From: an uncultured Lachnospiraceae bacterium
GTDB lineage: Bacteria > Bacillota > Clostridia > Lachnospirales > Lachnospiraceae
NCBI GenBank assembly: GCA_947385425.1
Contig: CANDKY010000031.1
Location: 1-38,275 of the forward strand
Length of the DNA: 38,275 bases
Direction of reading: 5' to 3'
This document shows, one piece after another, positions 8,325-17,629 of this stretch. The translations under genes were made by a program, and so were the position numbers. Every line of letters starts with the position of its first letter. Positions within the stretch are counted from its first letter, which is position 1. The notes below the pieces were generated by a model. That model was given only the letters and a program-made list of their open reading frames with translations. It did not search any database and had not been told where the DNA came from.

Positions 8325-9257
8325 ATGGCGCAAAAGACAGAGGAAAGCAGGCATGAGGCGGAGGTCTGGCAGGAGTATGAGAAAAAGAGGGAAGAGGGGA
8401 AAACGCTGAGGCAGAGGGTATTGGATTTTATCATTATAACCGCTGCTTCCGTGACGTACGGCATGGGGGTCAGCCTGTTTATTGATCCGAACAATATGGC
8501 TCCCGGAGGGGTGACGGGGCTGTCCATTATTTTAAGCCGTGTCGTGCCTCTGGAAACAGGTACTCTGATTCTGGTTATAAATATCCCTATTATCATTCTC
8601 GGAATATGGAAGTTTGGGTTCCGGTTTATTATTTCTACTTTTTATGCGATTTTCATGACTTCTTTTTTTACGAATGTTTTTGCAGGGTTCGGGGCGGCGA
8701 CGGGAGATATCCTGCTGGCAGCACTGGCCGGAAGTGTATTGATTGCTTCTTCGATTGGTGTTATCTTTAAAAGGGGGGCGACGACCGGCGGGACGGATAT
8801 TATTGTGAAATGCCTGCGGTTAAAGTATCCGCATTTGAAGACCGGCGCGCTGTTTTTTATGATGGATGTCTGTATTGTGGCTTTGTCGGGTGTTGTGTTC
8901 CGGAATATTGATTCCGCGCTTTATGCAGGCATTTCCGTGGTGGTCACGGCTGTGGTGCTGGATATGGTGCTTTACGGCAGGGACGGGGCGAAGCTGGTTT
9001 ATATTATCAGCGACCGCCAGAAGAGGATTACCGACAGGCTGCTGGAGGAATTGAATATCGGTGTGACAAGGCTCAGCGGGGAAGGGGCTTTCAGCGGGAC
9101 CGAGAAAAAGATTATTATGTGCGTGGTGCGCAAGCCGTTGGAGCCGAAGGTGGAGGAAGTCGTAAAGGAAGAGGATGCGGATGCGTTTATGATAGTCACC
9201 AGTGCGACGGAAATATTCGGGGAAGGGTATAAGAGTTATTTCGGGGAAAAGTTTTAA
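8325..9257 (+). CDS. YitT family membrane protein
   Basis: 310 aa from the ATG at 8325, which has AAGGTGG five bases upstream; a GTG three codons earlier (8316) is possible. After a charged N-terminal tail (~1-30) come about five hydrophobic helices (~32-205), including the family segment DPNNMAPGGVTGLSIIL and the glycine-rich GATTGGTDIIVK. A soluble C-terminal DUF2179 domain follows (~215-305; KLVYIISDRQKRITDRLLEEL). The family is widespread in Firmicutes; its transport substrate or role is not settled. The stop codon overlaps the first base of a palindromic repeat. Confidence 0.9.
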   Translation: MAQKTEESRHEAEVWQEYEKKREEGKTLRQRVLDFIIITAASVTYGMGVSLFIDPNNMAPGGVTGLSIILSRVVPLETGTLILVINIPIIILGIWKFGFRFIISTFYAIFMTSFFTNVFAGFGAATGDILLAALAGSVLIASSIGVIFKRGATTGGTDIIVKCLRLKYPHLKTGALFFMMDVCIVALSGVVFRNIDSALYAGISVVVTAVVLDMVLYGRDGAKLVYIISDRQKRITDRLLEELNIGVTRLSGEGAFSGTEKKIIMCVVRKPLEPKVEEVVKEEDADAFMIVTSATEIFGEGYKSYFGEKF

Positions 9258-15947: not shown

Positions 15948-16388
15948 ATGATAAACTGGGAAAAGGTAAAAAAGCAACGGAAGAATATTTTGATAGCGGT
16001 TATTCTGTGCTCTATGTTTTTTGCCGGCAGGGGGGCAGGATATTTGACGCAGAGGCTGGAAGCAGCTTCCGGCAAACCGATTAATTCCGTGGGCTCAAGC
16101 CATATCGCGGCATCTGAGAACTGGGGGCTGGGCGGTTACGGGGAGGGGACGCAGCCTACGGGCATTGCTTCCGCGGAAGAACTGAAAAAGTACGATGCTT
16201 ATTATGTGGGCGGTGCAGAGGAGAAGGTGATTTATCTGACCTTTGATGCCGGGTATGAGAACGGAAATACGGCGCCTATATTGGATGCGCTGAAGAAGCA
16301 CAATGCCCCTGCCACTTTCTTTGTAGTGGGGCATTATCTGGAATCGGCCCCGGATCTGGTGAAGCGGATGGTGGATGAGGGTGATTGA
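15948..16388 (+). pseudogene. 5' part of a PdaA-type polysaccharide deacetylase, interrupted
   Basis: The ATG at 15948 is chosen over an in-frame TTG at 15933. The frame has a signal anchor (~12-35) and the start of a NodB/polysaccharide-deacetylase domain: VIYLTFDAGYENGNTAPIL (motif 1, catalytic/metal Asp), NAPATFFVVGHYL, PDLVKRMVDEG. It then runs into a TGA at 16386. The missing half, beginning CVGNHTYHHLDMS, resumes in the same orientation at 17213 after about 0.83 kb. PdaA-type enzymes make muramic delta-lactam in the spore cortex. With motif 1 (Asp) and motif 2 (His-x-x-x-His) on separate frames, no active enzyme is expected. Confidence 0.85.
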
Positions 16389-16505
16389 GTTATAATAATG
16401 ACAGAACAGGGACTATTCATGTGCAATGCCATTGATTCAGGTGTAATTGGCCGGAGTGCCGGACGCATAGAGGGAAAAGTTTATGGACGGAAAGGGACGG
16501 GTAAA

Positions 16506-16808
16506 ATGGACAGCAATGTATTTACCATACAGGATATTGTAAGTTTGGTCAGGCCGATTGCGGAACGATACGGGGTAAAGGAAATATATTTATTTGGCTC
16601 GTATGCAAGGGGGGAAGCGGATGAGGACAGTGATCTGGATTTTCTTGTATTCGGCGGCGATCATTTTAAACTTACGATGATTTTTGCTCTTGCTGAAGAA
16701 CTGCGGGAGGCGCTGAAAAAAGATGTGGACGTGTTTGAAATCAATGAGATTAATCAGGACAGTGATTTTTACAATACAATAATGAAAGAGAGGTTGCCTG
16801 TTGCATGA
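16506..16808 (+). CDS. Minimal nucleotidyltransferase antitoxin (MntA-like)
   Basis: 100 aa from the ATG at 16506, preceded by GGGACGGG; in-frame ATGs at 16398 and 16419 would add residues not typical of the family. The nucleotidyltransferase signature is complete: GSYARGEADEDSDLDFLV gives GS (31-32) with the metal pair Asp43/Asp45, and a third acidic position in DVDVFE (73-75). Known MntA antitoxins neutralise the HEPN partner by adding AMP to its Tyr. It overlaps the HEPN gene by four bases (ATGA), so the two are coupled. The pair interrupts a deacetylase gene in the same orientation. Confidence 0.85.
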   Translation: MDSNVFTIQDIVSLVRPIAERYGVKEIYLFGSYARGEADEDSDLDFLVFGGDHFKLTMIFALAEELREALKKDVDVFEINEINQDSDFYNTIMKERLPVA

Positions 16809-17152
16809 AGTATTCGGATCACCAGCGTATACGTAAGATATATGAAAAAGCGTCGGAGTTATATGGATATATTGTAAACCATCAGATAAAGAAAGAAGAT
16901 TTATTAACGGAAACTCCTTTGCAGTGGCTTGTTACAACACCATTATATAACATTGGGGAACATGTCTATAATCTGTCCGGCGAATATAAGGAAGCACATA
17001 GTGAAATTCAGTGGGCGATGATAGCCGGGCTCAGGCACCGGCTGATTCACGATTACGATGGTACGAATTGGAATATTATTGTGGAGGTTGTTTTTGAAGA
17101 GCTGCCTGTCCTGATAGGTCAGTTGGAAAAAATAATGCAGGGAGAGCCGTGA
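16805..17152 (+). CDS. HEPN-domain toxin (HepT-like ribonuclease, DUF86)
   Basis: 115 aa, all-helical. The catalytic motif R-x4-H is present as Arg77...His82 in GLRHRLIHDYDG, followed by Tyr84, the position AMPylated by MntA in studied systems. Compared with the common RNxxxHxY form, the Asn position is His here. HEPN toxins of this type are RNases acting on tRNA or mRNA. Start overlaps the antitoxin stop. Both genes look intact, unlike the host gene they interrupt. Target and activity here are inferred from family only. Confidence 0.85.
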   Translation: MKYSDHQRIRKIYEKASELYGYIVNHQIKKEDLLTETPLQWLVTTPLYNIGEHVYNLSGEYKEAHSEIQWAMIAGLRHRLIHDYDGTNWNIIVEVVFEELPVLIGQLEKIMQGEP

Positions 17153-17187
17153 GGGGACAGGGCGCCAACCGCGCGGGTGGAATAATT

Positions 17188-17209
17188 TTGTGTCATTACC
17201 CTGACACAA
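17188..17209. repeat. Perfect hairpin at the right edge of the cassette
   Basis: TTGTGTCA (17188-17195) is inverted exactly as TGACACAA (17202-17209) around a six-base loop, immediately before the deacetylase frame resumes. The host sequence at 17218-17224 also reads TTGTGTC. It could be the element terminus or a transcription stop for the toxin, though no T-run follows. Confidence 0.6.
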
Positions 17210-17212
17210 GCA

Positions 17213-17629
17213 GGGCATTGTGTCGGAAATCATACATACCATCACCTCGATATGTCTAAAATCTCGGATAAGGTATCTTTCCAGAAGGAAATGGATGATG
17301 TGGCAAATCTGTATGAAGAAATTACAGGGCAGAAGCTTGCCATGTATTACCGTCCGCCCCAGGGGAAATACAGCACGGAGAATCTGGCTATGGCAAAGGA
17401 GCTTGGCTATAAGACTTTTTTCTGGAGCCTCGCTTATGTGGACTGGCAGCAGGATAAGCAGCCGTCGAAGGAGGAAGCTTTTGAGAAGATGACGGGGAGG
17501 ATCCATCCCGGAGCGATTGTGCTTTTGCACAGTACTTCACAGACGAACGGGCAGATCATGGATGAACTGCTGACGAAATGGGAGGAAATGGGATATACTT
17601 TTAAGCCTTTGTCGGCTCTGGTGCAGTAA
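17213..17629 (+). pseudogene. 3' part of the PdaA-type polysaccharide deacetylase
   Basis: Reading on from 17213 (GGG CAT TGT GTC), the frame gives GHCVGNHTYHHLDMS, the second NodB motif (His-x-x-x-His metal site). YYRPPQGKYSTENL (motif 3), KTFFWSLAYVDW (motif 4) and HPGAIVLLHSTS (motif 5) follow, ending at 17629. An internal ATG at 17252 could start a fragment, but it would lack the metal-binding histidines. Together with 15948-16388 it reconstitutes a full-length protein of about 285 residues. Confidence 0.85.

Follow-up and report, generated by a model that had tools for sequence, protein, structure and literature searches.

The 38,275-nt window that was analysed, i.e., positions 1 to 38,275 of contig CANDKY010000031.1 in the draft assembly GCA_947385425.1 (198 contigs; G000) of an uncultured Lachnospiraceae bacterium, contains a gene for a PdaA-type polysaccharide deacetylase with a NodB domain, which is interrupted by a unit of 833 bp. 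The unit carries an intact gene pair that resembles a toxin-antitoxin (TA) system, a nucleotidyltransferase of the MNT type and a HEPN protein. The coding features are as follows.

15948..16381, + strand: 5' half of the PdaA-type deacetylase gene with NodB motif 1, which ends on, and includes, a GG core
16398..16808, + strand: MNT (MntA-like) nucleotidyltransferase, longest open reading frame (ORF); PF01909 55.3 bits, PF18765 54.7 bits
16805..17152, + strand: HEPN (HepT-like) protein, candidate ribonuclease toxin; PF01934 52.2 bits
17213..17629, + strand: 3' half of the deacetylase gene from zinc motif 2 onwards, which begins with the GG core and encodes 138 aa until its natural stop

The left half starts with the ATG at 15948, and its frame closes at an in-frame TGA (16386-16388), which starts four bases past the GG. 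The right half lies on the same strand and extends from the GGG codon at 17213 to the TAA at 17627-17629. A preliminary description of the locus, made from the sequence alone, had proposed two same-strand halves of one NodB gene, and indeed the halves match consecutive parts of the PF01522 profile with a small overlap (positions 4-61 and 53-123). The top NCBIfam family is TIGR02884 PdaA for both halves alike, with a cut-off that applies to the whole protein and is out of reach for a half gene. The left half is 63-78% identical to unbroken orthologues (7 loci).

The unit (16382-17214) is inserted at a GG dinucleotide within the Gly-His codons that precede zinc motif 2. The junctions read host ...GAGG, element TGATTGAGT...CACAAGCA, GG and then the host codon's third base followed by CAT, and the only direct repeat at the window junctions is the GG. 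Alignment to relatives with an intact gene, as had been suggested, revealed that the gene is unbroken across the insertion site in eight relatives of the genus (the copy of L026 begins about 20 bases before the site), that no TA pair is present there, and that the junction is precise at the GG. A naturally short deacetylase with the TA pair beside it, the condition that the preliminary description had named as speaking against a split gene, is ruled out by these unbroken orthologues. As described before, the pair is accompanied neither by a transposase, since nothing resembling a transposase ORF was seen in the interval that separates the halves, nor by a recombinase, since tblastn with the three large serine recombinases (LSRs) encoded on contig C9 of the same genome detected no LSR-like ORF in the 38-kb window (threshold 1e-3).

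An origin of this arrangement by ordinary transposition, by homologous replacement or from misassembled junctions is very improbable. The genome is a draft, and odd contig ends do occur, e.g., an inverted repeat ends contig C191 of the congeneric genome G004. Against these origins, the same ends at the same codon are found in 11 genomes, including the record KE159819.1 of Lachnospiraceae bacterium 10-1, which has an element of 44.7 kb and is not labelled as a metagenome-assembled genome. In addition, nothing is repeated beyond the GG, and the absence of a transposase-like ORF between the halves also led to the rejection of a transposase origin.

Both genes of the pair are intact, overlap via ATGA (16805-16808) and exceed the Pfam cut-offs in their matches to PF01909 and PF18765 (MNT) and PF01934 (HEPN), and thus the description of an ATGA-coupled pair on about 0.83 kb was correct. 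The conserved part of the MNT protein starts near an internal ATG at 16506 and contains GSx10DxD, which we take to be the MNT motif, and RHRLIHDY of the HEPN protein presumably represents the motif Rx4HxY. The overlap of a nucleotidyltransferase gene with a HEPN gene is shared with the MntA/HepT (type VII) TA systems, but both proteins score below the NCBIfam equivalog cut-offs of 60 (MntA, 54.4 bits; HepT, 24.9 bits), and the pair is a candidate TA system. The MNT protein corresponds to the PADLOC candidate PDC-S09, and the HEPN protein had no PADLOC match. The 833-bp unit had no DNA match in the plasmid collection; in the phage collection one HepT-like match (45.5%) was found in an unannotated record.

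The window gene is not the only split deacetylase gene of this genome. A PF01522 search of G000 yielded 10 rows, and six of these represent three genes that are each split in two. In the second of them (C1, L009) the insert has 5.5 kb and contains an operon for a phosphotransferase system (PTS; antiterminator, EIIA, enzyme I, HPr and EIIBC), again without a recombinase. The third gene (C9, L010) is split by 9.9 kb, which encode a cation efflux protein, a TetR regulator and a DUF6870 protein as well as three LSRs in tandem (548, 596 and 570 aa; LSR domains by Pfam). All three genes are cut at the same codon by elements with the same ends, and the left-end pattern occurs nowhere else in G000. 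The window gene has PdaA as its best family and the C9-type gene has PdaB, with unbroken orthologues just below the curated cut-offs (284.6 vs 298; 224.1 vs 237.4), and for the C1-type gene the PdaB and PgdA scores are alike. Empty sites were seen in the eight relatives for the window gene and in two for the PdaB-like gene; of the 16 genus genomes, 13 have a C1-type gene that continues across the site without a break, and in G000, G004 and G010 it is split. Two other NodB genes that were scanned, encoding an amidase-NodB fusion on C32 (CwlD-like) and a PgaB-like protein on C2, are both under the cut-off, and a further PF01522 row of C2 (a 249-aa frame) was left out of the family scan. The sole PdaA-type gene seen in G000 is broken, if the element stays in place, and the earlier suggestion that the cell may have lost the formation of cortex delta-lactam stands as a conjecture. 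The amidase-NodB fusion, or excision of the element, might supply the function of the split gene: the open frame of the fusion (L001:562-2097) might contribute the delta-lactam steps while pdaA is split.

The ends of the window element consist of the following features.

16380..16381, + strand: GG core at the left junction (attL), seen from the empty sites in relatives
16382..16403, + strand: left attachment arm TGATTGAGTTATAATAATGACA, with three pattern matches in the genome; dyad partner of the right arm
17157..17183, + strand: one arm of a dispersed palindromic repeat, ACAGGGCGCCAACCGC..., which abuts the right end; same arrangement in the C9 element
17188..17209, + strand: right-end inverted repeat, perfect over 8 bp; retained by most right ends, less well by those of the C1 element and G412
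17191..17212, + strand: right attachment arm TGTCATTACCCTGACACAAGCA

A left-end pattern of 24 positions with up to three mismatches had three matches in the 4.4-Mb genome, each within a NodB gene, and the reversed control had none. Because the pattern marks three NodB genes only, the control is empty and the relatives are unbroken, the window ends are not due to chance. The perfect hairpin noted earlier was confirmed and is located in the right attachment arm, with the repeat arms TTGTGTCA and TGACACAA at 17188-17195 and 17202-17209. The two resembling edges, AGGGTGATTG and AGGGCATTG, are alike because the GG core is common to both (16380-16381 and 17213-17214).

Joined as right arm, GG and left arm, the ends form an attP-like dyad of 22-bp half-sites, in which 16-17 of the 22 positions agree in all 12 elements for which both ends are in hand; these elements are related and not independent. 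Shuffling one arm reached the dyad score 0 or 1 times in 20,000. In the C1 element both arms differ from most others, and at two positions the changes match each other. The attB site, which is the stretch coding for Gly-His of the NodB domain, is without such symmetry (2-7/20). The base that follows the right GG varies (G, C or A) in the manner of a third codon position of the host gene, and thus the core comprises two bases. All 12 elements read GG|N followed by CAT or CAC, the unbroken relatives read alike, and the flanks can be rejoined in frame. A 2-nt core, a dyad attP and the absence of a further duplication are marks of large serine recombinases. The window element thus ends in sequences built like serine-integrase sites, the GG being the two-base core, and the undescribed route of movement that had been considered earlier is not supported. 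We infer that the recombinase reads the DNA that encodes the zinc motif, which is alike in paralogues, and this may explain why several paralogues are hit per genome.

The right arms of the window and C9 elements share a CCCTG variant, and the other 15 of the 17 right ends read otherwise; this is consistent with the resident triplet, or its recent kin, having inserted the TA cassette. Directly upstream, 27 bp are also common to the right ends of these two elements. Their value as proof of kinship is weakened, since they are one arm of the dispersed repeat ACAGGGCGCCAACCGC..., which has 54 matches in G000 (up to three mismatches) and none in the control. The repeat often occurs as inverted pairs about 220-240 bp apart, and is also present in L010 at ~1920-2190 and ~8470-8750.

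The 833-bp segment is very probably a recombinase-less, site-specific cassette of an LSR-triplet family, presumably inserted by a triplet acting in trans. The triplet on C9, or a relative of it, would have supplied the recombination. The circular form would carry an attP of two 22-bp half-sites around GG, its recombination with the attB of a NodB gene would split the gene without loss, and precise excision would restore the frame. The TA pair may favour the retention of the cassette. Excision in sporulating cells, like that of the skin or gin elements, would be a speculative last step. Mobilisation in trans was one of the two origins offered in the preliminary description, and it has become the likeliest one, because another deacetylase gene of this genome contains an LSR-triplet element whose ends match. 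For the same reason the likeness to intervening elements of sporulation genes, which had been called a loose one, is closer than thought. At E<=1e-180, the second LSR of the triplet (LSR2) was detected in two of the 16 genus genomes, G000 (one copy) and G004, and both have split genes.

Several points weigh against this explanation. G010 has two split genes and no LSR2 at E<=1e-180; its contigs break inside the elements. Neither an excised circle nor a mixed population was seen in a script search for unbroken copies with the same flanks among the loci examined. Furthermore, the gin element of Bacillus cereus requires GirC alone among its three recombinases (PMC5595907). Lastly, the window element may once have had LSRs of its own and then lost them.

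The last point can be extended to a decayed resident, i.e., a cis-mobilizable element (CIME) that lost its own triplet by a deletion, perhaps via the dispersed repeat, and is now stuck, with a dead gene and a TA pair kept by addiction. In favour of it, CIMEs are a described class (PMC5704250), an arm of the repeat abuts the right end of both the window and the C9 element, and the HepT-like gene ends at the border of this arm. In addition, partial LSR sets exist, as G004 has the first two (LSR1+2) on C111 in one deacetylase gene and the third (LSR3) on C194 in another. Yet three recombinase-less elements with intact arms occur in two genomes with a resident triplet in each, the tblastn search found no LSR-like remnant in the window, the intact arms on both sides would still permit excision of the window element in trans, and no decay intermediate of this element was found. 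Decay in place is somewhat less likely than not.

Insertions of this kind in NodB genes were found in 11 genomes (G000, G004, G010 and G411-G418), a count that combines a right-end search, the genus searches and a left-end search of ten genomes. The carriers are mostly Lachnospiraceae: G000 and G004 are congeneric, G412 is in the genus of the Lachnospiraceae genome G417, and G411 is a Clostridia bacterium. In a collection of 84,980 species the right-end pattern had matches at 18 loci, 13 of them in NodB genes, including four contigs of G004 and G010 already known from the genus searches. Three are in another gene (L063, L066 and L067, with the variant CACAAGCCGG), one is in a histidine-kinase-like gene (L060; likeness judged by eye), and one is probably due to chance (L052, Ruminiclostridium). 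Viral contigs gave no match to the right-end pattern. Among 397 family genomes the left-end pattern matched in four, three times in G000 and once each in G032, G128 and G212. The latter three are not in NodB genes: those of G128 and G212 lie between ORFs of at least 110 aa, and that of G032 is at a contig end. In the 16 genus genomes (up to three mismatches) it had nine matches. Six of these are accounted for by the NodB left ends in G000 and G004 together with a mirrored copy located where a contig ends, and the remaining three, with 2-3 mismatches, are in G006 (two) and G007 (one). In the ten genomes, eight of 16 matches are at NodB left ends, and the other eight, with 2-3 mismatches, mean little because the reversed control also gave matches there.

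The cargo varies under the conserved ends. Besides the MNT/HEPN pair, the PTS operon, and cation efflux with TetR and three LSRs, it comprises catabolic genes of the sialic-acid type (L086), an FtsX-type permease with a lipoprotein-like ORF (L084), and LSRs with little else (L085). One element carries a relaxase (L092), and that of G417 (L087-L089) is an integrative and conjugative element (ICE) of 44.7 kb, whose VirB4 exceeds the curated cut-off for the CD1110 family. The window element lacks the LSR triplet, which the C9 element has and which also occurs in elements of five other genomes (L085, L086, L087-L089, L090 and L059). Eight elements are complete on one contig stretch; four of them have LSR1-3, one has LSR1+2 and three have no LSR. 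The recombinase-less ones belong to G000 (two) and G411 (one), and each of these genomes holds a triplet in another deacetylase gene. The window element is thus a dependent relative of the triplet elements and not a full member. The LSRs of the NodB elements are 58-84% identical at the same triplet position and about 28-35% identical to the other positions. The G417 element has an extra LSR, 32% identical to LSR1, at L087:3174-4829.

Serine-integrase triplets, CIMEs and elements that intervene in sporulation genes are each already known. PMC4701971 describes ICEs and dICEs of Streptococcus with three LSR genes in the same orientation, direct repeats of 2-8 bp and disrupted mutT, traG or hsdM genes. 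The elements found here share with them the three LSR genes classed by position, here visible in the percent identities, the disruption of a gene, and VirB4 in the G417 element; they also have a short core (GG), an attP dyad (16-17/22 in 12/12) and one target family. They differ from what is described there in that the targets are NodB-domain deacetylases, of which several paralogues are hit per genome, in recombinase-less members of down to 833 bp, and in the division of the LSRs between two elements in G004. With gin, a non-phage element of 31 genes in gerE with three serine recombinases and experimentally tested precise excision (PMC5595907), the C9-type elements share three serine recombinases inside one gene, here a candidate sporulation gene; here, by contrast, a family with several cargoes and paralogous targets is seen, and excision is a candidate step. 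Also yin, which interrupts yabG (PMC10747680), skin and SP-beta are site-specific elements in sporulation genes. In PMC5595907 they are characterised as prophage-like with a single recombinase gene, and the window element differs from them in having none. CIMEs, according to PMC5704250, have lost their integration and transfer genes. Like them, the window element keeps attL and attR without genes for recombination or transfer, and tandem accretion may be visible in L098; unlike them, it is a minimal cassette with one TA pair inside a coding gene, for which decay is a candidate origin. Among the matches listed from the open-licence PMC literature, no report of elements that split NodB/polysaccharide deacetylase genes was found, which is weak evidence for novelty, and no description of a NodB target, a minimal TA cassette or three paralogues cut at once was found in this literature.

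All 16 right halves of interrupted genes that were checked are open (14 reach the natural stop, two run to a contig end), and 12 of the 13 left halves are open over at least 97 codons; the exception, in G414, keeps 21 codons and has a second element just upstream. The ratio of nonsynonymous to synonymous substitution rates (dN/dS) of the right halves lies within 0.009-0.089 for all but one of the 30 unsaturated pairs, the exception having 0.21, and 21 further pairs are saturated. Both recent insertions and genes rejoined on demand would be expected to show this pattern, which is therefore indecisive.

The PdaB-like gene was analysed in 37 genomes of the genus of G417. It is unbroken in 14 and interrupted or truncated at about five sites in 20, which is an upper estimate because of draft genomes and unpaired halves. 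Classification was by match interval; G423 is ambiguous, and G438 and G440 gave no usable match. Site A near residue 88 was found in nine genomes, site B, the GG/Gly-His site of the window element, in four, site C near 206-212 in three, and sites D near 238 and E near 105-120 in two each. Both halves are on one contig in G421, G422, G444, G447, G439 and, weakly, G443 (49% identity) for site A, in G433 and G439 for site C, and in G417, G413 and G412 for site B. For G425, G449, G430 and G450 the stretch examined did not contain the second half, and the contig ends first in G431, G435, G437, G448 and G427; some unpaired halves may be truncations. In G439 one gene contains two elements, at sites A and C, and in G414 one gene contains elements at E and B, 16 codons apart, where the LSR at E shares 83-86% identity with the one of G427. 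G415, counted as unbroken, has an extra split copy with window-type ends (L058).

Four of the about five sites adjoin different LSRs. At site A an LSR lies at most 1.5 kb before the right junction in five of eight loci and further off in two more (L155 and L164), another LSR type is found at site C (4/4 loci), and a third type at site E (2/2 loci, plus G414). The hotspot loci are L070, L132-L148 and L149-L164. At site E of G448 a tape-measure-like ORF (by eye) suggests a prophage, in G428 (L119, C19) two tandem copies of the PdaB-like gene lie 1.2 kb apart, one with a stop, and in G449 an MNT/HEPN-like pair (by eye) is located just downstream of the interrupted gene (L140:2310-3034).

These results bear on a possible role of the elements as sporulation-timed DNA introns, whose precise excision would rejoin the deacetylase genes, as for sigK-skin, gerE-gin and yabG-yin, and which would be neutral or useful during vegetative growth. 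This is a tentative reading, with the balance somewhat against it. A Spo0A-type DNA-binding domain is encoded in all 16 genus genomes, which suggests, as far as can be read from the sequences, that the sporulation machinery is at least partly present. The best matches of the window and C9-type targets are the sporulation families PdaA and PdaB, the halves stay open with low dN/dS, and the PdaB-like gene is hit repeatedly, with the double insertions in G439 and G414, whereas no break was seen in its 73-79% identical paralogue among the 12 rows listed. On the other hand, this listing favours unbroken copies, and a fragment in G444 (residues 138-245, one TGA) may be a broken paralogue. Many pairs have a high dS, and purifying selection may predate the insertions. 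The split gene may also simply be dispensable, with paralogues covering for it, and the C1-type gene scores alike with PdaB and PgdA. No excision product was seen among the loci examined. PdaA of B. subtilis is made in the forespore, which fits poorly to an excision in the mother cell only. The wider picture, in which spore deacetylase genes of gut Lachnospiraceae behave like DNA-intron genes, unrelated LSR lineages each use their own conserved motif of the one gene, at times two per gene, cassettes of as little as one TA pair ride along at these sites and resident recombinases excise them all at need, is somewhat more doubtful still.

With regard to the Spo0A-type protein, it was also noticed that it looks receiver-less, as the best TIGR02875 row covers ~126-146 to 260 in frames of 174-246 aa (16 genus genomes), and that its gene adjoins a SpoIVB-like gene (by eye; L165:899-1492 and L167:1203-1766).

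The window element suggests that a TA pair may travel as a bare 833-bp unit without a recombinase of its own. For site-specific cassettes of gut Firmicutes, the system provides a recombinase set, precisely defined attachment sites and natural cargo of several types; the triplets and half-sites may also serve as integration tools. Whether spore-wall genes are rebuilt by DNA excision during sporulation in gut Lachnospiraceae, and what makes a single deacetylase gene the common target of mobile elements from different lineages, can now be tested. If the wider DNA-intron picture were true, the deacetylase gene would be a common docking port, open in vegetative growth and closed only in development.

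Further observations concern related ends and triplets. The sequence GGGGATTGAGATATAATAGTGACAAGC... is kept between two other genera outside NodB genes (L021 and L023; G032 and G212) and is perhaps the end of a related element. A left-end-like stretch of 24 bases, GGGCTTTGAGTTATTATAATGACA, is identical at G006:C258:430-453 and G411:C34:39473-39496 (L049, L081 and L100). On contig C4 of G411 a right end lies at GGACATCACATGGGG in a histidine-kinase-like gene (L097:11794), likely a secondary site, and upstream of it are an MNT-type gene (PDC-S09) and an ORF that resembles an AbiD-like one of L091. A second lineage of triplet LSRs, with ends ...CACAAGCCGG and another target gene, is represented by L098:4770-13431 (G411), L066 and L067; the L098 triplet is 31-42% identical to the first lineage at the same positions. 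The target of L063, L066 and L067 looks SpmA-like by eye only; Pfam and NCBIfam gave no family for the two pieces scanned. In L098 the end of the target is present twice with an AAA ATPase (PADLOC HEC-02A) in between, an accretion-like arrangement. In both triplet lineages a small protein is encoded upstream of LSR1 (L010:8043-8393, L098:4770-5096, L088:16132-16545 and L090:5138-5482); it belongs to DUF6870 by Pfam in L010 and L098 and by likeness in the others, and is a candidate directionality factor.

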